Shown: positions 13,151 through 42,673 of the stretch, in pieces
How the letters are laid out: each line of letters opens with the position of its first letter
Position numbering within the stretch: position 1 is the first letter of the stretch
Virus record (IMG/VR): IMGVR_UViG_3300018080_000045
Span: 1-44,464 of that record
Direction: 5' to 3' (one strand)
From: a virus
DNA: 44,464 nucleotides
The notes under the pieces: generated by a model
Told to the model about the DNA's origin: nothing
What the model saw: the letters and a program-made list of their open reading frames with translations, nothing else
Database searches by the model: none
Translations under genes and position numbers: made by a program

Positions 13151-13613
13151 TGAAGAAGAAGAGCAAAAACGTATTAAGGAAGCCAAGGAAGCAAAGTCTT
13201 GCTTGGATTGGCATAAATACTGTAATGCGGAATGTTGCAAGGTCTTTACATTAAGGAGGAAGGACCCCAATCTAAGGAAAAGGTTTATCTTTATGAAAAC
13301 AAGCCTTCCCCCCAATCGGATTTGGTATTATAAGCTAAGGGGTTGCGAGTTAGTTCGGGGAGTTTTGAAAGTACCTTCAAAATATTGTAAGTACGAAGAA
13401 GGGGTTGTTTATGTTCATAAGGCTTGCGAGTTGCTAGAGGGCTGTATGTGTCTTGGACATCCAGATAAAAAGCCACAGTTATGCAAGGACCTTACTGAAG
13501 AGACGGTGGGTAGCTTTGGTGGGTATTTGACACCAAACTGCTTATTTAGATATAAATTTATGGGGGATCAAGATGGGAAAGAAAAAAGAACCAAAACTAA
13601 AAAAACCAACTAG
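13128..13613 (+). CDS. Cys-rich metal-binding protein (YkgJ-like)
   Basis: The product has 161 residues with about a dozen cysteines. The spacing SCLDWHKYCNAECCKVF, then KYCKYEE, then KACELLEGCMCLGHPDKKPQ followed by LCKDL and PNCLF, resembles the zinc- or iron-chelating YkgJ/UPF0153 family, whose CxxxCC and C...C..RP..C motifs bind an Fe-S cluster or zinc. This family is unusual between terminase and portal genes. It could be a metal-bound packaging factor or a moron gene. The family call is tentative. Confidence 0.6.
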   Translation: MIRLESLSEEEEQKRIKEAKEAKSCLDWHKYCNAECCKVFTLRRKDPNLRKRFIFMKTSLPPNRIWYYKLRGCELVRGVLKVPSKYCKYEEGVVYVHKACELLEGCMCLGHPDKKPQLCKDLTEETVGSFGGYLTPNCLFRYKFMGDQDGKEKRTKTKKTN

Positions 13614-14013
13614 AGATGAGGTTGCAAGGCACAACCTTAAAGAGAAGATGAAAGCAAGGGAAGGGAAGATCATTACACATTTGGAAAGCTATTGTAAACA
13701 TATCATAACTGGGAGGTATTTCCTAGCTCGGGTTAATATGATGGCTGCACAGTTAGAGAAAGGGAAGATACTGGAAAGCATAGATGGTGCACCCAAACCA
13801 AGGGAGTTTTTCATAGCGGAACTTGCGAAGATGAGGCAACAGGCAATTATAAGCCATAGACATGCCTTTTTTGAGGATAAGAGCCTTAAAATGCTTGGAT
13901 GTAAGCAAGAAAGAATTAATAATGCTTTGACTGAGTACTATGAAGGAAAAGTTATGAGGGAATGGGATGACATTTATCAAGCAAAAAATAGAGCAGCCGA
14001 GTTCATTGAGTAA
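13573..14013 (+). CDS. Hypothetical basic helical protein
   Basis: The product has 146 residues, with a very basic N-terminus (MGKKKEPKLKKPTRDEVARH) and mostly helix thereafter. It overlaps the preceding gene by 41 nt and the following by 47 nt. It lies in the terminase-portal interval, where phages often encode small packaging or head proteins. No motif is recognised. Confidence 0.65.
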   Translation: MGKKKEPKLKKPTRDEVARHNLKEKMKAREGKIITHLESYCKHIITGRYFLARVNMMAAQLEKGKILESIDGAPKPREFFIAELAKMRQQAIISHRHAFFEDKSLKMLGCKQERINNALTEYYEGKVMREWDDIYQAKNRAAEFIE

Positions 14014-14404
14014 GTCGCAGGATAAAAAAGCGAAGTTCGTACCCGTTGAAACGGCTAAAAAGCAAAAATTTATATATAAGTACGTCTATCCTAGACTTAA
14101 GAAGCTGAATCCATATTCCCAATCGCTACGCAACAAGTGGAAAAAAATATACGATAAAGGGCGTATTTTAAGTGATAGGGTGGATTGGAAGAAAGTCAAA
14201 AAAGATTTGGTGACATGGTTCGTAAAGATATCTATTGAAGGGTTTACTGCGAACTTCGTAACACACTATCTGCTTGGGTTCCCTTTCACTATCCCCGTGT
14301 TGCTGGCACATGGAATTGCTATCCACCAGGTTGTGGAAATCGCTTGGAGATTCAGAACCCCCCATGGTCAACGTAACCCAGTATCTAAAGACAAACACGG
14401 TTGA
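13967..14404 (+). CDS. Hypothetical protein with hydrophobic C-terminal half
   Basis: The product has 145 residues. The first 85 are very basic (KKQKFIYKYVYPRLKKLN). About residues 85-125 are hydrophobic (TWFVKISIEGFTANFVTHYL, then GFPFTIPVLLAHGIAIHQVV) and could form one or two membrane helices. The start codon is uncertain because the 5' end overlaps the previous gene by 47 nt. It may sit at the membrane or in the capsid interior. It is not recognised. Confidence 0.55.
   Translation: MTFIKQKIEQPSSLSKSQDKKAKFVPVETAKKQKFIYKYVYPRLKKLNPYSQSLRNKWKKIYDKGRILSDRVDWKKVKKDLVTWFVKISIEGFTANFVTHYLLGFPFTIPVLLAHGIAIHQVVEIAWRFRTPHGQRNPVSKDKHG
14069..14078 (+). promoter_or_regulatory. TATA-like box inside a gene, ahead of portal
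   Basis: TTTATATATA preceded by an A-rich GCAAAAA is close to the archaeal BRE/TATA consensus. A start near 14103 would lie about 260 bp upstream of the portal ATG and could boost the portal-capsid transcript. It lies in coding sequence, so it may be chance. Confidence 0.3.
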
Positions 14405-15833
14405 TTCTAACCCCCTACCTTTTCTAAACTCTCTATTTATTAACAGATTTTCTGCATTAAGCCCTTACGGAGAAGATCAGTCTTTTAAGACTTTTATGAA
14501 GTGGGCCAGGAAAAGCCCACAGATTCTCAGCTTCATTCGGATAATTGCTTCTGATATCCTTTCTGATGAAGTAAAGTTTGTTCCAGCAAAAGAGGGTGCT
14601 TCAGGAAGGAATATGGTTCTGCGGTCTGAATCTTTCTGGATGGCAAATAAAGGTCGAAGGCATACGGAAGCTATGCTTTATGATTTACTTCTTCTTGGGT
14701 GGGGATTGGTTTGGCTAGGGAAATTAAATCAGAAACAAGTGAAGGAATTTTGCGAAACAGTGGTGGGGCATGTTTATCCAAACTTAGAGGCGAAGGAAAA
14801 AGAATTTAAGGCAACTGTTTTAACGGAGAACCTTCTTAAAGAGAAAGGTGACTCAATTGCAAAGAAATTAAGACACCTTCCAGCTTCCACTGTAACAAAG
14901 CATACAGACGAGTATGAAACTCTAGAATATTTCCAGAGAGTAGGGGGCAAGACTAAAACTTTCGATCCAGAAGAAGTAATTGAATTTGAATTTATGCCTT
15001 TTGACGGTAAGATATATCCATTTCCACCCATGGAAGCTTTGCTTTCAGAAGTATATCTTCTTTGGTTGATTTCTCAGAATTATGTATCTTTGTTTGAGAA
15101 TGGGGGGGCACCAGACAAAGTGTTCATCCTTCCTAATGAGCTTGCGAAGAGCAAGAATCATAGGTATTTGATTAATACACTTCGGAAATATAAGAAAATC
15201 CAGAACAAGCACGGGAATCTTGTTTTCACTGGAGACTTAAAGATTGAAGACTTACAAAAGCTGGATAGCACTATGGAGAATAAGGATTTGGCTCTTTATA
15301 TTGTTGGAATCTTAGCCATGTATTATGGGATTCCAGCAGGACGTATTCCTTTCTTGATTGGGAAAGCTGCGAACATGGGAGACGCTGGTGGACTGGCTGA
15401 TAGTGGATATTGGAGAATAATCAGCGTGATTCAGACTAAGATCGAAGAGGGCTACAATAGCGAGTTATGGATTCCTTTCTTTGGAACGAAGATGAAGTTT
15501 GGAAGGGGCTATAAACAAGATGAAGTAAGGGAAACCCAGAATGAAGTCACAAAAAACAGCGTAGTTGAGCAGAGGATGAGGTTAGGTCTTTGGACAGCAA
15601 CCAAGGGCGGTGAATATTTGGGTATTGATCCAGAGGAAATAACAAGGGCTCAACAAGAGAAAGAGAAGCGGGATAAGGAAGCTGCGGAATTAAAAACAGG
15701 TATGATGAACCAAGAGGAAGACAACCAAGGAAATGTGATTAATGAACCAGATAAGAAGGTCAAGAATAAAAGGAAGCAAGATACTCAAAATCAGAACCAG
15801 GCGAAAGCTGGAGGTAAGAAGATAAATCCATAA
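14364..15833 (+). CDS. Portal protein
   Basis: The product has 489 residues from the ATG at 14364 (MVNVTQYLKTNTVDSNPLPF); the longer frame from 14274 is rejected as overlapping. It follows TerL and precedes the protease-capsid gene, the usual portal position. Typical HK97-portal features are seen: RKSPQILSFIRIIASDILSD near the N-terminus, a Tyr/Pro-rich middle (EFMPFDGKIYPFPPMEALLS), the conserved IVGILAMYYGIPAGRIPFLI stem region, and a charged Gln/Lys-rich tail. Twelve copies form the DNA channel at one capsid vertex and bind terminase. No protease or other domain is fused to it. Confidence 0.85.
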   Translation: MVNVTQYLKTNTVDSNPLPFLNSLFINRFSALSPYGEDQSFKTFMKWARKSPQILSFIRIIASDILSDEVKFVPAKEGASGRNMVLRSESFWMANKGRRHTEAMLYDLLLLGWGLVWLGKLNQKQVKEFCETVVGHVYPNLEAKEKEFKATVLTENLLKEKGDSIAKKLRHLPASTVTKHTDEYETLEYFQRVGGKTKTFDPEEVIEFEFMPFDGKIYPFPPMEALLSEVYLLWLISQNYVSLFENGGAPDKVFILPNELAKSKNHRYLINTLRKYKKIQNKHGNLVFTGDLKIEDLQKLDSTMENKDLALYIVGILAMYYGIPAGRIPFLIGKAANMGDAGGLADSGYWRIISVIQTKIEEGYNSELWIPFFGTKMKFGRGYKQDEVRETQNEVTKNSVVEQRMRLGLWTATKGGEYLGIDPEEITRAQQEKEKRDKEAAELKTGMMNQEEDNQGNVINEPDKKVKNKRKQDTQNQNQAKAGGKKINP

Positions 15834-15834
15834 A

Positions 15835-18069
15835 ATGCCAAGACACCCAGATTTTCAGAAAATTCATGCTAGATTTGTGAAACAGTATGGTAAAGAGAGG
15901 GGCGAATCCCTTTATTATGCTTGGTTAAAGAAGAAAGGATATGCAGAGGAAAAGCCATTCCCCAAGAAAGAGAAGAAGGAAAAGCAGTGTATTGTAAAAG
16001 GGGTTGAGATGAAAGAGATGAATGGTGAATTCCATATAGAAGGTCTGATTGCCACCACCCATATTGATGATTTAGATAAAGCTGAAGGGATTGATGTCCC
16101 AGATAAATTAGAGAAAGAAACCCTTGATGACTGGAGTGACCAGATGAATCAAAATTTTGAATCAAGGGTGATGGGGGTTCACCATAGTGAGGGTAGGGCA
16201 ATTAATCCGCAATACTATGGTGAAGCTGATGTTGAAAAAAACCCAACGAAAGTAGTGCCCCTCCAAGGGGGGCACTGGGGTCTATTCGTAGATACAAAAA
16301 TGTTGATGGATGATCCCCAAACGCCAGAGATAGTAAAAGACTGGCAAGAAGGCAAGCTCAACTCTTTTTCCGTGACTTATGACACTCACGGCTTTGAAAC
16401 AACCGATTTTGATTGGGTTGATGGCAAACTTGTGAGGCTCATTAAGCCTGGAACGAAGTTATATGGCTATACAGCTTCGGATTTATATAATGAAGAAGGT
16501 GGAAGCCCTGTTAACCCGAATGCGGTTGCGACTAATTTGGGGTTCAAGGAATTTAAGGAGTTGATGAATGTTAAACCAACAGAGGAGGTTACGAAGATGT
16601 CTAAAAAGGAAATGAAGGAAGAAACTCCTCCTGCAGAAGAAGAGACTGCTTCAGCAGAGGAGCCAGATAAGAAAGAAGAGAAACCCGAGGAAAAAGTCGA
16701 AGAAAAGAAAGCCGAGGGTGCCGAAGGGGAAGATACAGAAAAGAAAGAATTCCTTGCCTTTAAGAAGTACAGGAAAGACCAAGAAGAGAAAGAGATGCTC
16801 AACAAGGTTTCTGCAAAAGTTGCAGATGATGTGCTTAAGAAACTAGAGGTTAAAGAGAAAGTTATGAAGAATCCAGAAGAAATCAAGATGGATAAGTTGC
16901 CACTTGAGTTCAAAGAATATAGGGCAGCGTTGACTAAACCAGAAGAGATCGAAGTGAAAGAGCAATTTACAAGAGCAGCAAATGTTTGTGGTAAGATTGG
17001 ATTAGATTGGCAAAAGTCCACAACTACTCCAGTTGAACAAAGAGAGTTCAAGAACTTCTCGACAAACGGAAGAAAGTTAATGTTCCGAGACCTCGAGTTT
17101 AAAGGACTTGGATTGACTACAAACCAGAATGCCGATACAGATTACTTGCAAAGTTCAGCAGAGCTACAGGATGTGTATGACCCTGTGATCTACAATGCTT
17201 TGAACCAAGAAACTGTTACTTGGAATCTGCTTGCAAAAGATGACATGAGTAAGAAGGGAAATAACATGGTTCAATTTACACTTAAAACCGTAGCGAATGC
17301 TTCTGCACAGTTTTACACTGGAAACAGCGTAAGTACTGGGCCAGTTACTAGATTGAAATACCAAACCAAATTTAAGAAAGTTCAGGTTGGCGTTTCAGTT
17401 GATGGCGACATGATTGCTGCTGCAAAAGGTGGACCTGTTGATGACGTTTTTGCACAGGAAGTCTTGGATTCAACTATGGATATGCTTGCAGTTGTTAACG
17501 CGGCTTTATTTGGCGTTAAGGGTGCAGAGACAGATGCAGAGTGTATTGGATTTGAATACCTAGCAGATGATGCAAACTACACTACGTTGTATAGCTTAAC
17601 AAGGTCTTCAGCGAATAAATTGGCCCCAGATTCTTCAACGGATAACTTTGTTAATCAAAGTTCTACGATTGTAAGTATGGCAAATCTGAGGACTTTAAAG
17701 AGAAATGCAACGGATGAAGGAGCAAAGAAGAGAAACTTAGTGTATATCACAAACCCACTTCAAGGAGATATGATGAGGGGTAAGTTTGACGACAGCAGAA
17801 GGATGTTAACTACAAGAGATACAGGTTTTGGATTTGCAACCGATCTATTTATTGATGGCATACCCGTATTTGAAGACATAGATTGTAACACAGATGATTG
17901 GTTCTGTGTTGACTTAGACTCTCACAGAGTTGGTATATGGGTACCCCCAACAATAGAGAGATTAGGTAAAACTCAAGACGCAGAAGATGCATTTATCAAG
18001 ATGTACTTCGCAACGTTCAATAGACTGCCAAGGGCTATTGGACAACTATATGGCTGTGCCACAAGCTAA
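15835..18069 (+). CDS. Fused prohead protease-scaffold-major capsid protein
   Basis: The product has 744 residues, with three parts in order. Residues about 1-245 are a prohead protease: candidate His in MGVHHSEGRAINPQYY and Ser in KLNSFSVTYDTHG, as in the HK97 gp4-like S78 family. Residues about 255-370 are Lys/Glu-rich helix (PEEKVEEKKAEGAEGEDTEK), like a scaffold or delta domain. From about 415 comes an HK97-fold capsid core (KLMFRDLEFKGLG, NNMVQFTLKT, NLVYITNPLQGDMM, and GIPVFEDIDCN near the end). The protease would cut off the scaffold after assembly. A strong internal ribosome site at 16581 with an in-frame ATG at 16597 (residue 255) would yield a separate 490-residue scaffold-capsid product. 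An oligo-T terminator follows. Fusions of protease and capsid are known but uncommon. Confidence 0.9.
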   Translation: MPRHPDFQKIHARFVKQYGKERGESLYYAWLKKKGYAEEKPFPKKEKKEKQCIVKGVEMKEMNGEFHIEGLIATTHIDDLDKAEGIDVPDKLEKETLDDWSDQMNQNFESRVMGVHHSEGRAINPQYYGEADVEKNPTKVVPLQGGHWGLFVDTKMLMDDPQTPEIVKDWQEGKLNSFSVTYDTHGFETTDFDWVDGKLVRLIKPGTKLYGYTASDLYNEEGGSPVNPNAVATNLGFKEFKELMNVKPTEEVTKMSKKEMKEETPPAEEETASAEEPDKKEEKPEEKVEEKKAEGAEGEDTEKKEFLAFKKYRKDQEEKEMLNKVSAKVADDVLKKLEVKEKVMKNPEEIKMDKLPLEFKEYRAALTKPEEIEVKEQFTRAANVCGKIGLDWQKSTTTPVEQREFKNFSTNGRKLMFRDLEFKGLGLTTNQNADTDYLQSSAELQDVYDPVIYNALNQETVTWNLLAKDDMSKKGNNMVQFTLKTVANASAQFYTGNSVSTGPVTRLKYQTKFKKVQVGVSVDGDMIAAAKGGPVDDVFAQEVLDSTMDMLAVVNAALFGVKGAETDAECIGFEYLADDANYTTLYSLTRSSANKLAPDSSTDNFVNQSSTIVSMANLRTLKRNATDEGAKKRNLVYITNPLQGDMMRGKFDDSRRMLTTRDTGFGFATDLFIDGIPVFEDIDCNTDDWFCVDLDSHRVGIWVPPTIERLGKTQDAEDAFIKMYFATFNRLPRAIGQLYGCATS
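16581..16599 (+). promoter_or_regulatory. Internal Shine-Dalgarno and in-frame start inside capsid gene
   Basis: GAGGAGGT (about 16582-16589) is followed after 7 nt by ATG at 16597, in frame with the 744-residue fusion (codon 255). The sequence MSKKEMKEE then begins the Lys/Glu-rich scaffold. The ribosome site is at least as strong as those of the neighbouring genes, which suggests deliberate internal initiation. Confidence 0.7.
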
Positions 18070-19577: not shown

Positions 19578-22500
19578 ATGAAAAAAGCTTTAGTTTATTT
19601 ATTATTTTCATTACTTCTTGTTTCAATAGCCTTGGCTGTACCCTGGTCGCCCCAGGATGATATTAACCTCAAAAACAGGTATGAAATTCATAATGGCACA
19701 AATGCCACTTTCCAAAATATCACTACAGATGAGCTTTGCTTATCTGCAGATACATGCAGGTCAACGTGGCCAGCTGGTGGAGGGGGCGGTGGAGGAAACG
19801 GCTCTCGGTGGAATATAACGGGAAGTACTTATTTAGCAAACTATTCAGGAATCTTAGATGTGAATACCTCTCCCTTAAATTCGACAATAAAGGCGAGATT
19901 AACAAATGTGCTAACAGGAGCATATTGGTGTAGATGGAACACAACCGCAGATAAGCTAGACTGTGACGTGACTCCATTTAGTGCAATTTCAAAGTGGCTA
20001 ATTCAAGGGCCTTACATCATAAACGCAAGTGGTTATCTTGCCTTTAATGAAACCAAGCAGAATGAAACAATAGATGCGAGGGACTCTGATACTACTTATG
20101 ATAATGCAACCCCCCTTTCATTAACAAGCACTACATTTGGATTAAGCCCATGTGGGAATGGAGAAATCTATAAATACAACACTTCTTCTTCTCTTTGGGA
20201 GTGTGAGGCTGACGAGACTGGAGCGGGAGGTACTGTAACTGGTTCTGGAACTACCGACACAATCCCAAGGTGGGCGAGTTCATCTTCTTTGGGAGACAGC
20301 ATAATGAGGCAGATTTCAAACCTCTTAAACATTACTGGAAGCTTAGAAGTCACGGAGAATATTACAATTTCTAATTCACTTTGTTTTATTGGAGACACCT
20401 GTCGAGATGATTGGGTTGTTGATACAAATGAATCGGGGAGGTTAACCACCTTGGAGAATCAACAGTCTGCGGATAACACTACCCAAGCTGCTGAGATAGA
20501 CGCAAACACCGCACAACAAAGTGCAGATAATACTACGCAAGCCAACCAAATTGCGGGGCTTGTTGCTTCAAATAGTTCCATGGACGCAAGAATGGATAGT
20601 ATGGAATCCTCAAATACAACCCAGGCAAATCAAATCGCTGGATTGGTTGCGTCTAATACTTCTATGGATTCCCGTATGGATAGCATGGAGGCTTCAAATA
20701 CCACTCAAGCAAATGAGATAGCTGCAAAGGCAGACCCAGGAGATTGTGCTGGTCAATTGGTCCAGAATACCACAACCACTGGAGTAGAATGTGTGGCACT
20801 TGTGGTAGACACGGACACAAATGAAAGTGTCAGAATGGGGAATATAGTTAATAATGAATGTTCTGCCGGTAATTTTATCTTTAATCATTCCCAAGATGGA
20901 ACACCCCAATGTGACGCTCCAGCAGGAAGTGGGGATATAACAGCGGTTAGAACTCACAATATTTACATTTATAATGGTTCAGAAAGCGGGGATGTGAAGC
21001 TAAGGTTTAATGACACTAAACTAAATGAGACAATAGACGCTAGGGAGAAAGTAAATTCTTCTCAAGAAATGGTGGATGCAGTAAACGGTTCTGCCCTTAA
21101 CTTAACTAACTCTTTTGATTACCCAGAAACAGACCCCCAAGTAGATACCTTAACTGCAACCAAATGGTGTGTGGCTGACGCGACAGGTACAGCCATAGAT
21201 TGTACTCAAGATGAACCCACTGGGACAGGAACAGGGAATACAACTACTTATTCTTGGGTTGCAAATGTTTTGGCTAAATTTAGAGATAAAGAGAATATTA
21301 CGGTAAGTAATATTACGGATGATGGGGCACAAGTTTTAATTAAGGGAAAAGCAAATATTACAGGAGATTTATATATTGGAGAAGGAGAAAAAGACCACCA
21401 GATTGTCTTTGAAGAGAATCCAGTTGAATCTTTAAAATGGGATAACGATACAGATGATTTTATATTAAGTGACCACCTTCAAACGTCTGGACTTGCAGCT
21501 ATTGGGGGGAATATCTTTACAAATAATGATATTTATACAACTGGAGCCTTGGATGATCTTTGGCTTGGAACATCAACACAAGTGAGTTCAGATTTCAGAG
21601 CTTATGCTTCTGGGCATTTGGTTGTAACGAACCAAGTCAATACCACTGAAGTTTGTTTAACAGGAGATTCTTGTAGAACTACATGGCCTTCTGGCGGGAC
21701 AGGGGGAAATGTATCTGGTATAGGAACTTCTGCTACAGTAGTGCCAAGATTCATAGATTGGGAAAATCTATCCACCAGTGGAATAGTGAGTGATGGGTCT
21801 AATGTTAATGTCTCTGGACTGCTTAGAACCGCAAGTGGAATAACAAGCCAAGGGAGTATCCTAGTTGAGCCAGTAGAAGCTACAATTAAAACAACTGGTG
21901 GAGATGGGGATATAGAAACAGAAGGTAGTGCTGCGGACATTCGTACCGAAGGAGCAAGTGCTCATATATACACCATGGGGGCTGGGAGTAAAATATATAC
22001 CCTTAAGGGGGATATCTTAGTTGCTGGAGCTACTGTTGGAGCAGCAAATATATCTCTTCAGGCTAGTGGGCGAGCAGTTATCGATCAACAAATTAATACA
22101 ACAGAGATATGTTTATTTGGAGATACTTGTAGGACTACATGGCCAGTCGATACAACTGATGGGAATGTTTCAAATATAGGAAATGTAGCAACCAACATCC
22201 CATATTTTATTGATAATGAAAATATGAGTCCAAGTGGTGCTACGTCTGACGGAGAGAATGTAACATTTGGTGCTAATGTAGATTTTGATGCAGATATAAC
22301 CGCTGCAGCTAGCATTGTTTTTGATATGGTTGCAGCAGTAGGGAATCCAATCTTTAACCTTAGATCAACAGGTGGTGCTGGAAATGCAATTTTTCAGATG
22401 GATGGGGTAGAAATAATTGGTTCGGATCAGGTAGTTAATGCTGCTCAAGTAGAGGATATTTGGGTTAATGAATCTGGAGATACAATGACTGGTGCGTTAA

Positions 22501-23063
22501 CTTTACCTACCATAACCGTAAATAATGTCACTATCCCTATTGGGGCGGGAGATACAGTTATCATAGATTATCCTGGAAAATTCTTGTTTAATTCTACTTC
22601 AGATATTATAGCTATTGGGGATTACATAAATGAGACGGCTGGAAACTATACTAGATTCAATATGTCTGGTGGTGGTGGCTTCAGAAAGTGGGGTAAGGAA
22701 CCTAAGTATGGTGTGATGGGAGACGCTTACGCTTTTAATGGAGTCAATATGGACACAGGAGCGACAACTAACGCAGGATTATTCTTTAATCAGACTGGAT
22801 TTTTCATTTCAATTAAAGATGTTGGTGGAGACCCAGTCCTTAAAGCAGATATTCAAGGTGCGGGAGAAGGAGATATAGAAGGAAGGGGAGAAATAAGGAG
22901 TAGTGGTAATGATTTCGGCTTAACAAAAGTCACAAATGCAAATACAGCTTGTACTTCTGCTTGTGACTATGCAGCAGTCCTTGGACAGGACACGGGGACA
23001 AATACCCTTGTTGATGTAACTGATGCAACAGCAGATATTTGCTTTTGTGCAGGACCAAGCTAG
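19578..23063 (+). CDS. Large secreted fibre-like glycoprotein
   Basis: The product has 1161 residues and begins with a Sec signal peptide (LVYLLFSLLLVSIALA, likely cut before VPW). About 25 N-x-S/T sequons occur in the first 420 residues. A motif CL-x-x-x-D-[TS]-CR-x-x-W recurs near residues 53, 269, 692 and 844, each beginning a module of fibre type; a GSGTTDTIPRWASSSSLGDS or VVPRFIDWENLSTSGIVSDG stretch recurs alongside. Residues about 295-385 hold a coiled-coil repeat. The end is Cys-rich (CTSACDYAAV and ICFCAGPS). It resembles tail-fibre or adhesin proteins but carries an export signal and sits between head and neck genes. It could be a virion spike, a secreted adhesin or a cell-surface exclusion protein. 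Confidence 0.8.
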   Translation: MKKALVYLLFSLLLVSIALAVPWSPQDDINLKNRYEIHNGTNATFQNITTDELCLSADTCRSTWPAGGGGGGGNGSRWNITGSTYLANYSGILDVNTSPLNSTIKARLTNVLTGAYWCRWNTTADKLDCDVTPFSAISKWLIQGPYIINASGYLAFNETKQNETIDARDSDTTYDNATPLSLTSTTFGLSPCGNGEIYKYNTSSSLWECEADETGAGGTVTGSGTTDTIPRWASSSSLGDSIMRQISNLLNITGSLEVTENITISNSLCFIGDTCRDDWVVDTNESGRLTTLENQQSADNTTQAAEIDANTAQQSADNTTQANQIAGLVASNSSMDARMDSMESSNTTQANQIAGLVASNTSMDSRMDSMEASNTTQANEIAAKADPGDCAGQLVQNTTTTGVECVALVVDTDTNESVRMGNIVNNECSAGNFIFNHSQDGTPQCDAPAGSGDITAVRTHNIYIYNGSESGDVKLRFNDTKLNETIDAREKVNSSQEMVDAVNGSALNLTNSFDYPETDPQVDTLTATKWCVADATGTAIDCTQDEPTGTGTGNTTTYSWVANVLAKFRDKENITVSNITDDGAQVLIKGKANITGDLYIGEGEKDHQIVFEENPVESLKWDNDTDDFILSDHLQTSGLAAIGGNIFTNNDIYTTGALDDLWLGTSTQVSSDFRAYASGHLVVTNQVNTTEVCLTGDSCRTTWPSGGTGGNVSGIGTSATVVPRFIDWENLSTSGIVSDGSNVNVSGLLRTASGITSQGSILVEPVEATIKTTGGDGDIETEGSAADIRTEGASAHIYTMGAGSKIYTLKGDILVAGATVGAANISLQASGRAVIDQQINTTEICLFGDTCRTTWPVDTTDGNVSNIGNVATNIPYFIDNENMSPSGATSDGENVTFGANVDFDADITAAASIVFDMVAAVGNPIFNLRSTGGAGNAIFQMDGVEIIGSDQVVNAAQVEDIWVNESGDTMTGALTLPTITVNNVTIPIGAGDTVIIDYPGKFLFNSTSDIIAIGDYINETAGNYTRFNMSGGGGFRKWGKEPKYGVMGDAYAFNGVNMDTGATTNAGLFFNQTGFFISIKDVGGDPVLKADIQGAGEGDIEGRGEIRSSGNDFGLTKVTNANTACTSACDYAAVLGQDTGTNTLVDVTDATADICFCAGPS
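20528..20720 (+). repeat. Tandem coiled-coil repeat within the fibre gene
   Basis: A unit of about 28 codons (NTTQANQIAGLVASNSSMDA, then RMDSMESS) occurs twice, with a third partial copy, each unit about 84 bp. The copies differ at several third positions. Hydrophobic spacing suggests a trimeric coiled coil as in phage fibres. Each unit carries sequons. Confidence 0.8.
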
Positions 23064-23072
23064 GAGGAAACA

Positions 23073-23783
23073 ATGAAAAAAAGTTTAATTTTTGTGGTTT
23101 TGATTTGTTTGTTGGGTATGGCTTTTGCCTTTATTCCAGAAGCAAAAAAAACCGAGAAAAGTTTAATGGAAAAGTATATTGAGATAGGAGACCCAGAATT
23201 ACCTTTTGGGGAGTTCTACCACGCACAAATCGCTATGGAAGAAAGACAAACATACAGTTATGAATTCCAAGAATGCGAATATGATCTAACTCACGAAGAG
23301 TTTTTAGATATGAGAAGAGCTAACTTTATAGCGTTATATAACAATAACACGCACTGGGTAGCTCCAGATGTCTATTCTTCGAGGTACTATGGTAATTATT
23401 TTATTGATAAAGGAATAGAGTGGTTTCCTTTACAGAACGATAGGGTATGTGTTGGAAATATGACCTTAAGTGGAGTCATTGAAGGCTCACCAGCTTATCA
23501 GTGTTGGAGAAACACAAATACATCCATTTCTGATGCAGATTGCCATGATTGGTTTGTTAATGGAACAGATGACACCTTCTTTGATAATAAAAGAGGGAGG
23601 CATTATGCAAATCCAATTGTAAGGCAAATATATATCGGTGTGGAAGTTAATGAGATGAGTAAGCTTGTTTATGCCCAGTCTCAAATAGAGATGAATTTAT
23701 CGGGCTTATTTGATGAGATAAGGAACAGTGGTGATGTCCAACATTTAACTTTTGGAGACCACGGCTATGGTGATACTCCATGA
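23073..23783 (+). CDS. Secreted protein with sequons
   Basis: The product has 236 residues with a clear signal peptide (SLIFVVLICLLGMAFA, likely cut before FIPEAKK). A GGAGGAA lies 5 nt before the ATG. It has several N-x-S/T sites (NNTH, NMTL, NTSI, NGTD) and paired cysteines (CEYD, VCVG, QCWR, DCHD) that may form disulfides outside the cell. It ends LTFGDHGYGDTP. The stop overlaps the start of the next gene (ATGA). It probably works with the 1161-residue protein upstream. No family is recognised. Confidence 0.75.
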   Translation: MKKSLIFVVLICLLGMAFAFIPEAKKTEKSLMEKYIEIGDPELPFGEFYHAQIAMEERQTYSYEFQECEYDLTHEEFLDMRRANFIALYNNNTHWVAPDVYSSRYYGNYFIDKGIEWFPLQNDRVCVGNMTLSGVIEGSPAYQCWRNTNTSISDADCHDWFVNGTDDTFFDNKRGRHYANPIVRQIYIGVEVNEMSKLVYAQSQIEMNLSGLFDEIRNSGDVQHLTFGDHGYGDTP

Positions 23784-24733
23784 GAACAATAGCAGTCTTA
23801 TTGCTTGTAAGCCTTCTGTTGATGAGTTCGGCAGGGGCGGAATCTTTTTTAAACTGTATTAGGGGGGTCTCTAGACAAGAAATTGAAAATATGAGATTAA
23901 GCGATATGTATGCTATTTTAAATGAAGACGTTACGGTTTCAAATTTTCGAGAAGAAGGGGATAAAGTCCGTGTTCCTTATTCATATAACGTCTTGGAAGA
24001 AGATGATGTGTTCGGGGTATATTGTATAATTCGAAAAACAACCCCAACTTGGATATCAACTGACCAAATAGAGGATTGTCAGCTTACAAAGACTCGGTCT
24101 CAGTGTTATGATTATGCTTTCAACAGTGAAGACGAGAATATTGTTAGTGCTGGTGATCTTGATGTTTGGATAATGAAATCTACTAAGAGGAAGATTCAAG
24201 AATATGTGGAAGCTGTTGAGATTGAAAACATGCTTGCGATTCAGGCTAGGGTAAGAGATGTAGATGTGATGACTGACTTATCTGGCTATGGTTCATTAGA
24301 AACTCCTTACTTCGGAGACACCCCCCCGCTTCCTTTAGACGCGGGTGATTCAGACCCAGACCCCGAGCCCTTGCCTGTAGAACCTGTTTATACAGAAGAA
24401 GAATTGGGGTTTGCTCTTGATGCCTATGGTACACCAACTTATTGGCAGTTCCTTAATGAAGTTGAGTTTTTAGAAGGGGTTAGTGTAGATTATAGTCAGC
24501 CAGGAAGGATTGAGATTATTACTTTAAATTATTCAATTTGCTTCGAGAATTCAGCCATGCAAGAGATTTTGTATCGGAAAAGCACAAGAGGCACTAAACT
24601 CTGGGTAAATCTCGCTAATTTAGATAATTATGGTTTAAATTGGGAAGTTCCCACATTTGGGTTTTTATGGAGAGACATCCAAGACGGAGATTGTTGGGAC
24701 AAAGGCGAATTGAGTAAAATGAGGTTGGTATAA
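23780..24733 (+). CDS. Secreted protein with sequon and Pro-rich linker
   Basis: The product has 317 residues. The signal peptide is IAVLLLVSLLLMSSAGA, followed by ESFLNC. Two regions are joined by an acidic Pro-rich linker (PLPLDAGDSDPDPEPLPVEP). A FGDTPPLPL segment resembles the GDTP end of the preceding protein. Cysteines (NCIRG, VYCII, EDCQL, QCYDY, ICFEN, DCWDK) suggest disulfides. It is coupled to both neighbours by ATGA and TAATG overlaps, so it is co-produced with the other secreted proteins. Function is unknown. Confidence 0.75.
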   Translation: MRTIAVLLLVSLLLMSSAGAESFLNCIRGVSRQEIENMRLSDMYAILNEDVTVSNFREEGDKVRVPYSYNVLEEDDVFGVYCIIRKTTPTWISTDQIEDCQLTKTRSQCYDYAFNSEDENIVSAGDLDVWIMKSTKRKIQEYVEAVEIENMLAIQARVRDVDVMTDLSGYGSLETPYFGDTPPLPLDAGDSDPDPEPLPVEPVYTEEELGFALDAYGTPTYWQFLNEVEFLEGVSVDYSQPGRIEIITLNYSICFENSAMQEILYRKSTRGTKLWVNLANLDNYGLNWEVPTFGFLWRDIQDGDCWDKGELSKMRLV

Positions 24734-25014
24734 TGGCTCCGAATGGAATGGCTAATGGAAATACTGAATGGAAAGTGAGCCAAGCAGAATTCAAAGGATT
24801 TGTGAAAGCAAAATTAGAAGACATACAAAAAGCCATTCAAAATCAAAATCAAACCTGTGTAGGGACAAGAAAAGAATTTAATAACCAAGTGGGAGATTTA
24901 GACGGAAGGATTGATAAATTGGAACAATCAAAGAGCTATGCCCTTGGTTTCGCTTCAGCAGTTGGATTCCTTGCTGGATTGGTGGGAAGCTTTTTGTCAA
25001 GGATTTGGAGGTAA
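24733..25014 (+). CDS. Coiled coil with C-terminal membrane helix (XhlA-like)
   Basis: The product has 93 residues. The first two-thirds are coiled coil (KGFVKAKLEDIQKAIQNQNQ, then VGDLDGRIDKLEQSK). The last 23 residues are a Gly/Ala-rich membrane helix (SYALGFASAVGFLAGLVGSF), ending LSRIWR. This is the plan of XhlA-like holin accessories and of short tail-anchored phage proteins. It follows three secreted-protein genes and may anchor them or act in lysis. The assignment is by layout only. Confidence 0.65.
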   Translation: MAPNGMANGNTEWKVSQAEFKGFVKAKLEDIQKAIQNQNQTCVGTRKEFNNQVGDLDGRIDKLEQSKSYALGFASAVGFLAGLVGSFLSRIWR

Positions 25015-25016
25015 AG

Positions 25017-26435
25017 ATGGCATATACACGAACAGCACCAAGAACCCAAAACATCACTGGTGCAGATTTAACTGGGGCAGATGGGGCAACAAATAGGACA
25101 TATACAATTCCAGATGCGGGAGTTCTTTCTAGCGGTGTTGATATAGCTATTAATGGAACCCAACTCCATGAAGGTGCTTCTAATGATTTTACCCTTTCTG
25201 GAGAAACCATCACTTTCTTGAATAATGTTGACAATCCAGATATCATAAGAATCAATTATTTTATTGCTTTGGCTAGAGATACCCAATCAACAATTACTAC
25301 AACCACCACCTTAAAGTATGCTACAACACTTCAGTTTGCTGCAATATTAGGGATATTAAGGAGCATTCCTACTTGGGATGATAGCACAAACCCAACTAAT
25401 ATTAAGGAAGAGGTTGGGACGGGGGATAATAGTGAGACCCGATTTTACTTAGATCATAAGAACATTTTGAGTGATTCATATACTCTATATTATGGATCAG
25501 CCTCTACAACGACAGATGAGTTAACTGAAACCACCCATTACACTATTAATCAAACTACTGGAGCAGTTACTCTAACTTCAGCTGGTGTCACATTAGTTGG
25601 CACAAATAAAATATATGCTACATATAGCTATTGCTTCAAGGACTTTTCAGATGAATATTTAGTTGCTGTGTTAGGTAGGGCAGAGAAAGAAGTAGACGGA
25701 TTATGCAACACGACTTTCACAGATGGGACTGCTACAAACCCAGATTATCCAAGCAGAACAGAAATTCAACCAACTATGGGTCAATACCAACAGGACTATT
25801 TTACAGATGAGAAACCACTTATTGATGTAAGCTCAACCTTATCTGCAGATATTACGGCTGCAGCAACAAGTATAGCTTTAGCGACAGGAGACGGAGACAA
25901 ATTCCCTTCTACTGGTACAATCATAATTGGCTCAGAAAAGATTACATATACGGGTGTTTCAACCGATACTTTAACTGGATGTACTCGTGGTGTTGGGGAT
26001 AGCACCGCTGCAACGCATTCAGAAGATGATGAAGTTCACACCACCGTCTTGGAATTATCAGGTACTTCAGAGGGAACAGCACCCACGTGGGAAGTTCAAC
26101 CCTGGAATTCAGACATGTTCGCAAATGCGGATGGGAAGATTTTTATATACCGAGATTCCCTTTCAAGCCAGGTTACTGCGGAAAGTACGGTCCTTCATAA
26201 GACAGGCGTGGCTAATAGATTCAAGCTTACTTACCTTTATGGATATGATTCAGTCCCAGTGGATATTACAAGATTAACTTTACTCCTGGGCAAACGTATG
26301 CTTATACAAGATAGCGTTGGCGGAGCGATGGTTAAAGGGCGGAATGAGTTCCGCCCAGAGATGATGAACGCTGATGCTCAAGAAATAAGGAGTATTGTAG
26401 GGACCTATAAAGTGGTCGCTATGGGCAATACTTAA
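25017..26435 (+). CDS. Putative head-tail connector/adaptor protein
   Basis: The start at 25017 (MAYTRTAPRTQNITGADLTG) has GGAGG about 6 nt upstream. The product has 472 residues, with beta-rich first and last parts. A central helical part (FSDEYLVAVLGRAEKEVDGL) resembles an adaptor core. A later loop (TIIIGSEKITYTGVSTDTLT then GCTRGV) is a small beta module seen in phage structural proteins. It precedes three genes with neck/tail-completion patterns, so an adaptor at the portal is likely. It is longer than classical gp6-type adaptors (about 100 residues), which implies added domains. Confidence 0.6.
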   Translation: MAYTRTAPRTQNITGADLTGADGATNRTYTIPDAGVLSSGVDIAINGTQLHEGASNDFTLSGETITFLNNVDNPDIIRINYFIALARDTQSTITTTTTLKYATTLQFAAILGILRSIPTWDDSTNPTNIKEEVGTGDNSETRFYLDHKNILSDSYTLYYGSASTTTDELTETTHYTINQTTGAVTLTSAGVTLVGTNKIYATYSYCFKDFSDEYLVAVLGRAEKEVDGLCNTTFTDGTATNPDYPSRTEIQPTMGQYQQDYFTDEKPLIDVSSTLSADITAAATSIALATGDGDKFPSTGTIIIGSEKITYTGVSTDTLTGCTRGVGDSTAATHSEDDEVHTTVLELSGTSEGTAPTWEVQPWNSDMFANADGKIFIYRDSLSSQVTAESTVLHKTGVANRFKLTYLYGYDSVPVDITRLTLLLGKRMLIQDSVGGAMVKGRNEFRPEMMNADAQEIRSIVGTYKVVAMGNT

Positions 26436-29370: not shown

Positions 29371-30797
29371 CTTTTTTCGAAGATATTGTAATCCGAGTGA
29401 AAAGCACGGTGTCCCAGTTTCAGCAGACTATGGGCCAAGCAAGACAGAGTATTCAGGCTGTAAAGCAGAATGTGCAAGGCTTTACAAACGTCATGGGGCA
29501 GAACATGGAGCAGTTCAGGAGAAACATTGTCCCTATGAAACAGAATGCTATGCTTGGTGCAAGGTTAGCTCACCGCTTCAGGGTACTGACTCACGGAATG
29601 CGTGGGTTTAGAATGGAAGCTCTGGGAGTCATGTTCTTTGGAATGATGTTGCAGAGGACTTTCACTGGACTACTCAAACCTGTCATGGAAGCTTATGGTG
29701 TCTTCGATTTATTTAGAGTAATGCTGTTAATCCTGTTCATTCCAGTAATGGATATGCTTCTAGAGCCTCTGATAGACATAATGACTTGGTTCATGGATTT
29801 ACCCGAGTCAGCTAAGAAGGCAATCGGAATCTTTGTATTGCTTGGGGCAATAGTTGGTGGAATCTTATTTGTGATAGGTGCATTTACTTTGGGCTTCGGG
29901 AGTTTAATAATGATGTTTGGGGGAGCCCCAGGAAAAGTAGTAGCGTCTTTATTAAGGATTCTATCTGGAGTAAAGTTTGCTTTCGGTGCGATCTTAGCGG
30001 TTGTCACCGTTATCTTATTCGGTGTGTTTCTTGCTTGGAAGGATAACTTCGGGAATATCAGAGCATGGATGCAAGTCTTCTGGGAAGGATTAAAAGGAAT
30101 GTTCCAAGGAGCTTTAGATATAATTGCAGGGATAATGGACTTCTTTGTAGCTCTTTTTACAGGGGATTGGGAAGGAGTTAAAGCAGCAGTTATCCGTATC
30201 GTAAATGGAATAAGAACCTTTTTGAAGTCTCAGTTTAATATGATTCTTGGATTAGCTGTTGTGCTTGGCTTAGGGATTCTGAAGTTATTTAATGGGATTA
30301 ATGAGACCATTAAAGGAATGCTTAAGAGTCTTGTGAGCTGGGTTGATGGCTGGAGTGGTGGATTTGTCAGCAAAATGTTTGATTGGGGAGCCAAGATTAT
30401 AAAAGGATTGGGGGATGGAATAAAAAGCATGGCTGGATGGATAAAAGACGCAATCTTAAGTTTATTTCCCAGTTGGGCCCAAGATTTAATATGGAGTGCG
30501 GGTAAGTTTGTCATAAACATATTTACTAAAGGGAAGAAGGGAGAAGAAAAAGGAGGTTCTTTTGGAGATTTTATCTGGAGACCTGGCTTTGCTCCGATCT
30601 CATTTAGCCCCCAAGATACTTTAGTTGGCTTCAAAGGAAAGACTCCTTCTGGGGCACTGGGTGCAGGTGGTGGGGGAGATGTTTACCTTAACCAAACCAA
30701 TAATGTTCAAGTTGTTGATAGAGCCGAACTCAATAGGATGTTTGAGGAATACGGCAGAAAGCTTGTAGAAGATATAAGGAGGATGTTTCCAGCATGA
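29367..30797 (+). CDS. Tape measure protein (short)
   Basis: The product has 476 residues. An N-terminal helical part (VSQFQQTMGQARQSIQAVKQ) leads into hydrophobic helices (about residues 85-225, for example FRVMLLILFIPVMDMLLEPL and GIFVLLGAIVGGILFVIGAF). Amphipathic Trp-containing helices follow. The C-terminus has SFSPQDTLVGFKGKTPSGAL, a stretch typical of tape-measure proteins, and a final helix. At about 1.5 angstroms per residue the tail would be near 70 nm, which is short. No lysozyme or peptidase domain is seen. It overlaps its neighbours by ATGA on both sides. Confidence 0.85.
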   Translation: MTFFEDIVIRVKSTVSQFQQTMGQARQSIQAVKQNVQGFTNVMGQNMEQFRRNIVPMKQNAMLGARLAHRFRVLTHGMRGFRMEALGVMFFGMMLQRTFTGLLKPVMEAYGVFDLFRVMLLILFIPVMDMLLEPLIDIMTWFMDLPESAKKAIGIFVLLGAIVGGILFVIGAFTLGFGSLIMMFGGAPGKVVASLLRILSGVKFAFGAILAVVTVILFGVFLAWKDNFGNIRAWMQVFWEGLKGMFQGALDIIAGIMDFFVALFTGDWEGVKAAVIRIVNGIRTFLKSQFNMILGLAVVLGLGILKLFNGINETIKGMLKSLVSWVDGWSGGFVSKMFDWGAKIIKGLGDGIKSMAGWIKDAILSLFPSWAQDLIWSAGKFVINIFTKGKKGEEKGGSFGDFIWRPGFAPISFSPQDTLVGFKGKTPSGALGAGGGGDVYLNQTNNVQVVDRAELNRMFEEYGRKLVEDIRRMFPA

Positions 30798-31192
30798 CGG
30801 ATATACCAAACATTTTATTGTATAACACAGGCGATAAAGGTGGTTCAAGTGAAGTTACAGTCTATACTACAAATGTGGAAGAGATCATCAACAAGAAGCT
30901 CGTGAATGTTGTTCCTGGACAGAGTTCAGCAAATTGGAGTCTTGGTCCAAAAGATACAAAGATTGTGGATTTATTGAGAGTGGAAGAGCGTTTCTCAGTA
31001 AACGGCTATATTGATGAAAGTGATAAAACTAAATTTAAAGCTTTCATAACAAAAGGGGGCACCGTAACTATGGAATGGGAAAGCGAAACTTTTGAGATTA
31101 ACATAGACAAATTAACTGTAACAAAAAATAATAAAGCAGAAGATACGGACAGAGATGTGATGTTTACCGCCATAGTTGGTGTGGATATATAA
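30794..31192 (+). CDS. Putative tail-tip (distal-tail-like) protein
   Basis: The product has 132 residues, beta-rich (SSEVTVYTTNVEEIINKKLV, then ANWSLGPKDTKIVDLLRVEE, and DVMFTAIVGVDI at the end). It follows the tape measure and precedes the large anchored protein and the hub. The pattern of small tail-tip proteins with KIVDLLRVEERFSVNGYI is consistent with a ring at the tail end. No close family is certain. Confidence 0.6.
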   Translation: MTDIPNILLYNTGDKGGSSEVTVYTTNVEEIINKKLVNVVPGQSSANWSLGPKDTKIVDLLRVEERFSVNGYIDESDKTKFKAFITKGGTVTMEWESETFEINIDKLTVTKNNKAEDTDRDVMFTAIVGVDI

Positions 31193-33669
31193 TGGCAAAG
31201 AAAGTATGGCTTAGTTCCTTTTTGGTAATGGTTATACTAGCTTCTTCTATCTATTTTGTGCTTCCAGACAAAGTGCGGATTGACATAGAAAAGACCAGGA
31301 CAAAGTATTCTGTGTGGATAAATGATTCTTGGGACTTGGCTGCAACGGAGTATGTAAATCTTTATGATGGCTCTAAGAAGATGAGGGCAAAGAGTCGGGA
31401 ATTAAATAACTGGACGGATGGGTATTATGTTTATGTTAGCCGTACTTCAAAATGGAAAGAGAATATTACAACCATTCAAACTTATGTCTTTGATCCCAAT
31501 ACTCCAAAAGAAGAATTAACCCCTCTTAAAAATATCTTTGAATGCATGAACTGCGAAGGAAAGATTGTGCATTATGAGGTAAGGGATATCTCTTATAATG
31601 GTGCAACTAAAGAAATCACTAGCCCTTTCTCTTTTGGGAAGCAGATGAAAATAGAATGGCAAGATGGGGCTTACTACTCTAAAGTTTTTCAGCAGAAATC
31701 AGTAGATAAAATTATCATAAAGTACAGACCCCAACAAAGCCATGAAGTCTATAGAGTCAGGTTGTTTGATCCCCCTATTGTCACCGCATACATAGATGGG
31801 ACTTCCGCAGATGCAGATGTTGAGATGGGTCCTGTTAATATTTCTGGAACATCCACTACAGGAACAGGTCCTCCCGATTTAGTTGTTTGCTTGGACACAA
31901 CGCACCCAGCTTACGGTGTGAATTACACCTGTGCGGAGAATGAGACTAGCTTTATCTTTGATGTGCAATATTTTAGGAAAGAAGAATTAAATAATACAGA
32001 TACCGCACGGAACATAACCTGTGTAGAAAATATAAATTCTACCGTCTATTTAAGAGCCCATCAGTGGGATGTGGTAAAGAACTTCACCATTAATCTCACA
32101 GGATTTCCAATAGGTGGAAGCTTACCCAGTAATTTAGATATCTTTGTGAATGACACCTTGACTTATACTATATCTGGAACTCTTAACTCAAGTGCTTTGA
32201 AAGTGGAAGAATTTGACGATAGCTCCACCTATCAAGATTTTAATTCCACCACCCCCGTTGTTCATACTGCCGAATTTAGAATCCCTAAAACAGCCACAGT
32301 TGTTGAGGCTTATGTTAATGTCTCTGGATTTAGTTTCTGGAGTGAGGAAGATGATACAGAAGATGAAGCAGATAACCTTTGTCAATTTACAACAGGAAGT
32401 TGTACTAATCTACCTTATGGTTATGATGAAAATATATCCACCGCAGCAGAAGTCAAATCAGGAGAACCTGTTAATGTTGATACAATGTTTATTTGGGAGA
32501 ACTATACATGGAATGTTATTTGGACTGGAGACATGACTTGGAACTACACTGGCTCAGTTCCAGGTGGAAGCCCATGGCAAGTGGGTGAATTTAATGTATC
32601 TATTTATAACCATTCAAGCTCAAGTTGGAAACGTATATCTTCAACTGGGCCTGGGACTGGAACACAGACCGTTGAATATGATTTCCATGTAGATGACTTC
32701 GGACTAAACTCAACTAATAAATTCAGAACCCAAACAATAGGTACTGGAGTGAGCATACATAGCTCTACTAAATACTTTGAAGGGTCTTTATCTTGGGACA
32801 TTAACCCTAGTATGGCTTATGTGGAAGCGGGAACCCCAGACGGAGATAGGGAATGGAATCACACGGCTCTTGTAACTACAACCACAAAGTCAGAGAATAT
32901 GAGTACAGCTATTAACTCTTTCTTAGAGAACTGCACAGCAGATGTGTTTGGTTATTGTGATGTCCCCCTTTATGTTTACTCTGGGACTGCTGGAGGGCTT
33001 AATTTAACTAACCTTTACATACTCTACACTGGAGCTGGATGGAATCCTGTTTCAATAAATATAACCCATGCACAGAGTTTCTTGGACGCAACTTCATCCA
33101 CTTGGGCAGATATCCCCCTTAAATTTGAAAGTGCAACAAATGGAACTCTTGAGATATCTGACATCAACTTTGATTATGCGGGAGGCAATCAAACTTATGA
33201 AATCACAGCACACAATTCAGACTACAGTGCGGAAGATAAGCAGAATGCAACTTTCTTTTATTCAAGGTTTGAACTCTCCTTTCCCCAGCACATCTCTGCT
33301 TTGGAGTTCATACCACGAAGACCAACTTCCAAGAATGTAACTCCATACGGTCAAACTGCCACAAGACCTGTTTTGAATGTAACCCCCAAAGACTATGATG
33401 GACCTGGCTTTAATTTTTCTATGTATATGAACGAAACTTATTCCTGTGTGAATCTTACTGTTGGAAATTCCTCTACTAAATCTGCAAGTCAATTGCTTGG
33501 ATCAGAAACTTGGTATGACCTTCAACTAGAAGCAACCGATCCTAATTATTTTGGACTATGGATGTGGGCAGATTACGCATGTAACTTTACTGCCTGGAGG
33601 CTATGGGAACCCGAGTTCTTCTTTAGAGGTTGCTGTCTTGGGTGTGTATGTGATATAGGGGTGAGCTAA
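31192..33669 (+). CDS. Large membrane-anchored or secreted sequon-rich protein
   Basis: The product has 825 residues. The N-terminus has a short basic start and a hydrophobic helix (VWLSSFLVMVILASSIYFVL), followed by a charged region. It may be an uncleaved anchor or a signal peptide. Many N-x-S/T sites occur (NDSW, NWTD, NITT, NISG, NYTC, NETS, NITC, NFTI, NLTG and more). It is beta-rich and has scattered cysteines and a Cys cluster at the end (FFRGCCLGCVCDIGVS). It lies between tail-tip and hub genes, so a receptor-binding or tail-associated surface protein is plausible. The export signal argues against normal cytoplasmic tail assembly. TAATG overlaps link it to both neighbours. Confidence 0.75.
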   Translation: MAKKVWLSSFLVMVILASSIYFVLPDKVRIDIEKTRTKYSVWINDSWDLAATEYVNLYDGSKKMRAKSRELNNWTDGYYVYVSRTSKWKENITTIQTYVFDPNTPKEELTPLKNIFECMNCEGKIVHYEVRDISYNGATKEITSPFSFGKQMKIEWQDGAYYSKVFQQKSVDKIIIKYRPQQSHEVYRVRLFDPPIVTAYIDGTSADADVEMGPVNISGTSTTGTGPPDLVVCLDTTHPAYGVNYTCAENETSFIFDVQYFRKEELNNTDTARNITCVENINSTVYLRAHQWDVVKNFTINLTGFPIGGSLPSNLDIFVNDTLTYTISGTLNSSALKVEEFDDSSTYQDFNSTTPVVHTAEFRIPKTATVVEAYVNVSGFSFWSEEDDTEDEADNLCQFTTGSCTNLPYGYDENISTAAEVKSGEPVNVDTMFIWENYTWNVIWTGDMTWNYTGSVPGGSPWQVGEFNVSIYNHSSSSWKRISSTGPGTGTQTVEYDFHVDDFGLNSTNKFRTQTIGTGVSIHSSTKYFEGSLSWDINPSMAYVEAGTPDGDREWNHTALVTTTTKSENMSTAINSFLENCTADVFGYCDVPLYVYSGTAGGLNLTNLYILYTGAGWNPVSINITHAQSFLDATSSTWADIPLKFESATNGTLEISDINFDYAGGNQTYEITAHNSDYSAEDKQNATFFYSRFELSFPQHISALEFIPRRPTSKNVTPYGQTATRPVLNVTPKDYDGPGFNFSMYMNETYSCVNLTVGNSSTKSASQLLGSETWYDLQLEATDPNYFGLWMWADYACNFTAWRLWEPEFFFRGCCLGCVCDIGVS

Positions 33670-42097: not shown

Positions 42098-42291
42098 TAT
42101 AATTTAATGCCTATTTGGGCATTTGCAAAATCCTTAACTCTTTTAGCATTCTTAATCTTTTCTTCAAATTCTTCTGGCTTGTTGAAATCTCCATAGACTT
42201 TGATTGCTCCTCCTTTTGAAGCAGAGCCAATTGTTATCGAGTCACGCTGTTCCTTTAAGTCTTCCAATAGTTCTTTTTGAATGTTGGTCAT
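42097..42291 (-). CDS. Hypothetical small protein
   Basis: The product has 64 residues. GGAGGT lies 8 nt before the ATG. It contains a helical start (IQKELLEDLKEQRDSI), a strand pair (TIGSASKGGAIKVYGDFNKP) and a basic helix. The first 50 nt overlap the end of the HNH gene. Function is unknown. Confidence 0.6.
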   Translation of the reverse strand: MTNIQKELLEDLKEQRDSITIGSASKGGAIKVYGDFNKPEEFEEKIKNAKRVKDFANAQIGIKL

Positions 42292-42673
42292 GTTTAATTA
42301 CCTCCAAATTATTTATTTTATTATTGAGTTTATTCCCATCTTTATGGTGGACATCGTATCCTTCTGGAATTGGCCCGTTATGAAATACCCAGACAAGACG
42401 GTGCTCCTTGTATGTCTTCCCTTTAATTTTGTATCTCCGATAGCCTTGTTTGTCTATATGCCCCTTGCTTCTTTTGTCATTAGTTATCGCCTGTACCGCT
42501 TCCTTGATGTCATTTCCAACATCTATTGAAACGGAACATCCTTTCCCTTGATTCCAAGGCATCCTGCCTTTCATTTTTGCTTTAATAGATTCGCTTAAAG
42601 GAATACCCTTCTTAAATCTTGTTTGCATTCCAAACGTATGCCCTTTGAGGAACCTCCCATTCTTATCCCTCAC
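42242..42673 (-). CDS. HNH endonuclease
   Basis: The product has 143 residues and begins with a GTG at 42673; GGAG is about 8-10 nt upstream. The HNH core is clear: EHRLVWVFHNGPIPEGYDVH, H110, KDGNKLNNKINNLEVI, then HDQHSKRT. The N-terminus (MRDKNGRFLKGHTFG) resembles NUMOD-type DNA-binding segments of homing nucleases. It is probably a free-standing mobile endonuclease inserted in the operon. It overlaps both neighbours, which suggests it has been in place for some time. Confidence 0.88.
   Translation of the reverse strand: MRDKNGRFLKGHTFGMQTRFKKGIPLSESIKAKMKGRMPWNQGKGCSVSIDVGNDIKEAVQAITNDKRSKGHIDKQGYRRYKIKGKTYKEHRLVWVFHNGPIPEGYDVHHKDGNKLNNKINNLEVIKHDQHSKRTIGRLKGTA

Follow-up and report, generated by a model that had tools for sequence, protein, structure and literature searches.

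The virus record IMGVR_UViG_3300018080_000045 raises the question of what proteins with export signals are doing among the virion genes of a tailed virus. The particles of tailed viruses are assumed to be put together in the cytoplasm, so that an exported protein would be on the wrong side of the membrane. The window analysed here, i.e., the entire IMG/VR record of 44,464 bp, is classed as a virus and has features of the Caudoviricetes (Terminase_6N, Phage_portal and TerL PHROGs). Its terminase, portal, major capsid protein, connector, tail-completion, tail-tube, tape-measure and hub genes form a single co-directional run, in which several names were assigned from position and conservation without a family match, that of the tape measure from position and length. 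The initial annotation had pointed to three consecutive genes for secreted, sequon-rich proteins, here called P1, P2 and P3, within the head and neck gene order; they do stand in the run that leads from capsid to hub, between the decoration genes and the connector. This head slot and its borders read as follows:

15835-18069, plus strand: major capsid protein, 744 aa, with a long N-terminal region and a sub-cut-off SU10-type match at residues 448-737; the 5′ bound of the head slot
19578-23063, plus strand: P1, predicted exported fibre-like protein, 1161 aa, with signal peptide 1-20 (IALA|VP), the N-terminal motif PQDDINLK, tail-fibre-like repeats and 50 sequons
23073-23783, plus strand: P2, predicted exported protein, 236 aa, with signal peptide (MAFA|FI), 5 sequons and AGGAGG upstream
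23780-24733, plus strand: P3, predicted exported protein, 317 aa, with signal peptide (SAGA|ES), 1 sequon and a C-terminal domain common to anchored glycoproteins
24733-25014, plus strand: P4, 93 aa, with a coiled coil and a C-terminal membrane segment (70-88), overlapping P3 and preceding the connector
25005-26435, plus strand: connector-type protein, 476 aa, conserved in relatives; the 3′ bound of the head slot

The SU10_MCP score of the capsid protein (23.6) falls just under the Pfam cut-off of 24.1, and the first ~330 residues of this protein resemble a fused protease/scaffold region.

The export signals and anchors were assigned from hydropathy, charge, cleavage motif, gene coupling and conservation. 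Each of P1, P2 and P3 begins with a basic end followed by a hydrophobic core (residues 4-22, 4-22 and 6-24, respectively, the only such segment in each protein) and then an AxA-type cleavage site. The start of P1 lies 1 nt past the upstream stop, with the next in-frame Met only at residue 243, that of P2 follows AGGAGG by about 5 nt, and that of P3 overlaps the P2 stop, as the P4 start in turn overlaps P3. With the hydrophobic segments, the AxA-type motifs and the starts fixed by Shine-Dalgarno sequence or coupling, the three consecutive signal-peptide genes are real, and the possibility, entertained from the outset, that ordinary fibres had simply been given the wrong N-termini is contradicted by the AGGAGG, the overlaps and the 1-nt gap. 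The 22 cysteines of P1 lie close together two by two, and a recurring C-[LF]-x-[AG]-D-[TS]-C loop accounts for four of these 11 pairs, an arrangement that would be expected of disulphides made outside the cytoplasm.

No Pfam domain was recognised in P1, P2, P3 or the tail-module protein GP described below, the 50,697 named phage records contained no counterpart of P1, P2, GP, the hub or the capsid protein, scans of close relatives with P2 and P3 gave no match, and for P2 no relative was found at all. A homology between P2 and P3, suggested by eye, was unsupported on comparison. The structures that AlphaFold predicted for the GP C-terminus and for P3 (pLDDT 48 and 46) were too poor to be read, and fold searches returned nothing below E 0.001.

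P4 had been regarded as coupled to the three secreted proteins. It is indeed coupled to P3, but the coupling is unspecific: relatives likewise have small membrane proteins of this kind ahead of the connector, and one of these relatives (L010) lacks a head-slot cassette; P4 was rejected as a member of the cassette and is better called its neighbour.

A fourth gene with an export signal, absent from the initial annotation, was found farther along the run, between the tape-measure and hub genes. This gene, GP, and the genes that flank it are:

30794-31192, plus strand: g30794, conserved tail gene, 132 aa, the marker of the tail slot
31192-33669, plus strand: GP, predicted exported protein, N-terminally anchored, 825 aa, with a conserved Cys-rich C-terminus and 34 sequons, between g30794 and the hub
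33669-35129, plus strand: hub-like tail protein, 486 aa (PHROG 1887 tail protein), with neither signal nor sequon excess, homologous to the hub in GP-less relatives

GP has a hydrophobic anchor at its N-terminus and is rich in sequons over the rest of its length, which fits an exported, membrane-anchored protein with an ectodomain; it stands in the tail module beside the hub, unlike P1-P3 in their head slot. The relatives with which it was compared, about 40 IMG/VR contigs, were those retrieved with the capsid, terminase and tail-tube proteins as queries. In the carriers, the tail slot directly 3′ of g30794 is occupied by a single exported protein, 825-2206 aa in length, and such a sequon-rich protein directly precedes the hub in 22 of the 27 contigs where the slot is visible, a plain count over contigs that are not phylogenetically independent and that includes both L070 and L071, which look like one virus, and L062, where the slot protein is cut off after 127 aa. 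The slot lacks an exported protein in the other five (G009, G010, G011, L055 and L076, the last placed from position only). In the three of these that were compared with PHROGs (G009, G010 and G011), tail-fibre or baseplate PHROGs were matched by a small domain that stands beside the hub or forms its end, and in G011 a tail-fibre match with no signal was also obtained farther downstream; by eye, a similar small protein is seen in L055, whose contig ends just past the hub, and fibre-like genes in L076. The hub is 512-643 aa long in G009, G010, G011 and L055 as against ~483-510 aa in GP carriers, with G002 (683 aa) as the exception, and the hubs of the two types are homologous (hhalign 96.9%, E 1.7e-10). 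The tail-tube protein of L055 is 72% identical to that of the window, and those of the exported-type G001 and G003 are 75% identical. Downstream of the hub, no obvious same-strand fibre gene was seen in the window and its near relatives, G003 having further exported genes there, while in the distant relatives L063, L065 and L070 a large signal-less protein that could be a fibre follows GP.

Two observations were made near the tail-tube gene of relatives. Glycosyltransferase-type genes, not present in the window, occur there in L061 (10627-11583), L062 (15834-16832), L067 (10638-11378) and L074 (9175-9936), and a gene beside the tail-tube gene of L062 (10618-12594) contains intein-type splicing and LAGLIDADG domains.

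The sequons of these proteins were compared with shuffles of each protein's own sequence, and the reversed motif [ST]-x-N served as a control for direction. P1 has 50 sequons where its shuffles have 18.2 (z 8.5), the reversed motif occurring 8 times, and GP has 34 against 10.5 (z 8.2). In P2 there are 5 against 1.5 (z 3.1), and the single sequon of P3 is no excess, so that the description of the whole set as sequon-rich applies strongly to P1, weakly to P2 and not to P3. Pooled, the remaining window proteins that were scanned contain 49 sequons and 59 reversed motifs. The same asymmetry is found across the relatives, where exported proteins of the tail slot (n=20) have 1184 sequons against 486 reversed motifs and those of the head slot (n=24) have 868 against 418, whereas the capsid proteins (72 against 81), connectors (40 against 32) and hubs (69 against 82) do not show it; the direction-specific excess is thus confined to the exported sets. 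Of 15 core protein classes, each with 8-35 members, none showed more than stray N-terminal hydrophobic segments or sequon excess. No protein with both a hydrophobic N-terminus and a sequon excess was found in HFTV1, psiM2, Drs3, BJ1, HSTV-1, HRTV-DL1 or the first half of HVTV-1, the structural region of which may fall in its other half. Tail fibres made in the cytoplasm would have no export signal, and the signals or anchors together with the sequon selection set the present proteins apart from them. A direction-specific sequon excess in virion genes could serve more generally as a signature for finding viruses of N-glycosylating hosts.

The head slot is far less constant than the tail slot. 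Gene maps of the relatives show from zero to four exported proteins, which follow the decoration genes in the window, L007, L009 and L029, lie between portal and capsid protein in L012, L030 and L072, and are grouped around the connector in L014/L079. In L084, the capsid protein of which escaped the family profile, a signal-peptide fibre of 1159 aa and an anchored protein of 1309 aa stand side by side between the portal and capsid genes. The recurrence of a three-gene set beside capsid genes, which had been proposed as a check, was seen as an arrangement, but number, content and position vary and the set is not the unit. Head-slot exported genes also occur alongside the ordinary type of tail in G009, and as a fragment in L056; because of this coexistence, a replacement of tail fibres by the head cassette was rejected. 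The recurrent part is the exported protein of the tail module; on the best reading of these sequences, P1-P3 would be a variable accessory part.

The two slots nonetheless exchange parts. The N-terminal anchor domain of the L007 head-slot protein is 62% identical over 168 aa to that of the L064 tail-slot protein, and similar pairings link the head-slot proteins of L061, L079, L012 and L015 with the tail-slot proteins of others. P3 residues 244-317 share 44% identity with the membrane-proximal part of the G004 tail-slot protein, the C-terminal domain of P3 is also related to L082, L083 and L084, and the N-terminal motif of the P1 type recurs as PQGDINL in L003, L007, L014 and L061. LamG (Pfam) is present in 6 of 20 tail-slot and 6 of 24 head-slot proteins, and the other Pfam domains in relatives are Kelch, DUF2341, CBM96, FGE-sulfatase, BNR and GH39/arabinofuranosidase C, so that the domains recognised by sequence are mostly modules that bind or process glycans. 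One related protein has a weak similarity to a Chlorovirus glycoprotein repeat. The head slot of L009 contains a signal-peptide protein (13205-17188) with LamG and an arabinofuranosidase-type C-terminal domain. That of L007 (13205-17308) has CBM96 and a C-terminal FGE-sulfatase/C-type-lectin-like domain like those of retroelement hypervariable targets; the diversity-generating retroelement that this domain led one to suspect was not supported, no RVT_1 match being found in 13 records.

The host of the virus is probably an archaeon, judging from the sequon selection, a sub-threshold ERCC4-type nuclease match and the terminase, for which the closest named relative was Halogranum tailed virus 1 (25% identity). 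When the tail-tube protein was compared with 84,980 host genomes, one 4-kb contig (L035) was found in a bin of the bacterial Aminicenantes; a host in this group was rejected, as the contig is too short to be trusted and is possibly misbinned. For the window's replication genes, MCM and primase identities were considered and no support was found. Elsewhere in the window, a 139-aa protein with an N-terminal signal-like segment is encoded on the minus strand (43227-43646) and has a relative in G002 (L019), and small homologous genes like homing-endonuclease associated repeats are scattered over the window (42242-42673, minus strand), L016 (3838-4281) and L047 (8465-8875).

Export of P1-P3 and GP is strongly indicated by these sequences. 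From the sequon selection and the pairing of cysteines we infer that GP and P1 are N-glycosylated and that disulphide bonds are formed. Whether the exported proteins serve the lineage as an organ of host recognition, with P1-P3 as its variable accessory part, is an evenly balanced matter; this reading draws on the fixed tail position, the alternation with ordinary tail-tip genes, the lectin-like content and the exchange of parts. P1-P3 and GP would be expressed from the late virion gene run and cross the membrane by Sec, after which P1-P3 would be cleaved behind the AxA site and GP, like the head-slot cousins in relatives, would stay anchored by its N-terminus. Outside the cell, disulphides would form and GP and P1 would gain N-glycans. 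P1 would then be a long modular fibre, which P3 may couple to an anchor via the shared membrane-proximal domain, and the anchored proteins would present lectin-like heads. The organ would bind glycans of the host surface, a role played in other viruses by tail fibres or head turrets, and would most likely join the particle at or outside the envelope. Assembly, receptor binding and presence in the virion are steps that we infer from the sequences. A virion-surface or host-surface layer had been suggested for the secreted set. The proteins do look exported, but the exclusion coat offered as one form of such a layer is less favoured than receptor binding, since the tail-slot protein occupies the site of tail-tip genes in a few relatives.

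For a role in the virion as such, the chances appear equal either way. Against it stand the coexistence with ordinary tails in G009 and L056, the signal-less gene after GP in distant relatives and the absence of a sequon excess in P3. The accepted view of tailed viruses is that their receptor-binding proteins are made in the cytoplasm and attached to the tail before lysis. A bolder and more tentative proposal, to which we give somewhat less than even credence, is that this apparatus has been moved outside, i.e., that the cell exports and N-glycosylates fibres and tail-tip proteins and retains them in its membrane, from which naked capsid-tail particles would collect them on exit, so that a membrane-anchored glycoprotein would sit on the tail tip.

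The serious rival to a virion role is display on the infected cell. On this view, an infected or lysogenic cell would keep the proteins on its surface, where they would act as adhesins, as a glycan-modifying coat or as a barrier to superinfection, without ever becoming part of the particle. This is serious because head-slot genes are found beside ordinary tails (G009, L056) and because, to our knowledge, a tailed particle has no way of collecting external proteins; proteins usually reach the cell surface by means of a signal peptide or an N-terminal anchor, with no need for a new assembly path, the head-slot set varies like accessory cargo, and the slot of L009 encodes a secreted glycosidase-like protein. 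Such display nevertheless seems unlikely, as it leaves unexplained both why 22 of 27 contigs have the tail-slot protein at precisely the same place ahead of the hub and why signal-less tail-tip or fibre-type genes appear where this protein is absent. Auxiliary cargo, which would degrade glycans or gather nutrients, alter the metabolism or neighbourhood of the host and lie in the late gene run by chance, is improbable: GH39, arabinofuranosidase-type, BNR, CBM96 and LamG domains do occur in some relatives, but no enzyme domain is recognised in most members, P1-P3 and GP among them, and cargo would not keep to one site in the tail module. That these are ordinary cytoplasmic tail fibres with hydrophobic N-termini for assembly or membrane insertion, as the fibre-like repeats of P1 and the faint Chlorovirus resemblance might suggest, is very improbable in view of the textbook signal peptides with fixed starts, the direction-specific sequon excess and the paired cysteines of P1.

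An exported and seemingly glycosylated product of a recurring tail-module gene that trades places with ordinary tail-tip genes among relatives would imply either a new route of assembly and exit for tailed viruses or a widespread surface-display gene concealed in their tail operon. No description of such an exported module in tailed viruses was found in the literature covered, subscription papers lying mostly outside that coverage. Within this scope, and among the seven isolated archaeal tailed viruses scanned (HVTV-1 by half), no equivalent of the system was found, in keeping with the initial annotation, which had put it forward as a candidate for an undescribed system.

Several known systems resemble it in part. 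The head turrets of HFTV1, with gp30 as base and gp31 as head carrying galactose-binding-like and deacetylase-like domains, are encoded among the neck genes (PMC12494034), and in HSTV-1 a tower gene separates those for portal and capsid protein. Both are alike in placing host-recognition genes with glycan-binding or glycan-modifying domains among head and neck genes, a likeness of position and domain style; unlike in the window, neither export signal nor sequon excess was detected in these two genomes. The ORF24 protein of HRTV-DL1, a host-attachment protein with a sialidase domain from a virus for which some virion glycoprotein staining is reported (PMC10544981, PMC10384203), is likewise a tail-module adhesin carrying a glycosidase domain, but it has no N-terminal hydrophobic segment and 9 sequons against 6.3 expected. 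The hypervariable tail-fibre adhesins of the haloarchaeal Hafunaviridae (PMC8651126) share the pattern of a variable receptor-binding gene in a conserved virion gene order; they are described as ordinary glycine-rich tail fibres, in a paper that is silent on signal peptides and glycosylation. The spindle-shaped viruses of the Thermococcales encode membrane-anchored modular ConA lectins at a conserved locus with fast gain and loss of lectin domains (PMC12934983), and these are similar as virus-encoded lectin proteins with a transmembrane segment. They belong to a spindle-shaped virus, whereas the slot described here lies in the tail module of a tailed virus, flanked by a conserved tail gene and the hub. 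It is the combination of a tailed-virus tail slot, export and selection for N-glycans that sets this lineage apart from HFTV1, HSTV-1 and the Thermococcales spindle viruses, none of which unites the three.
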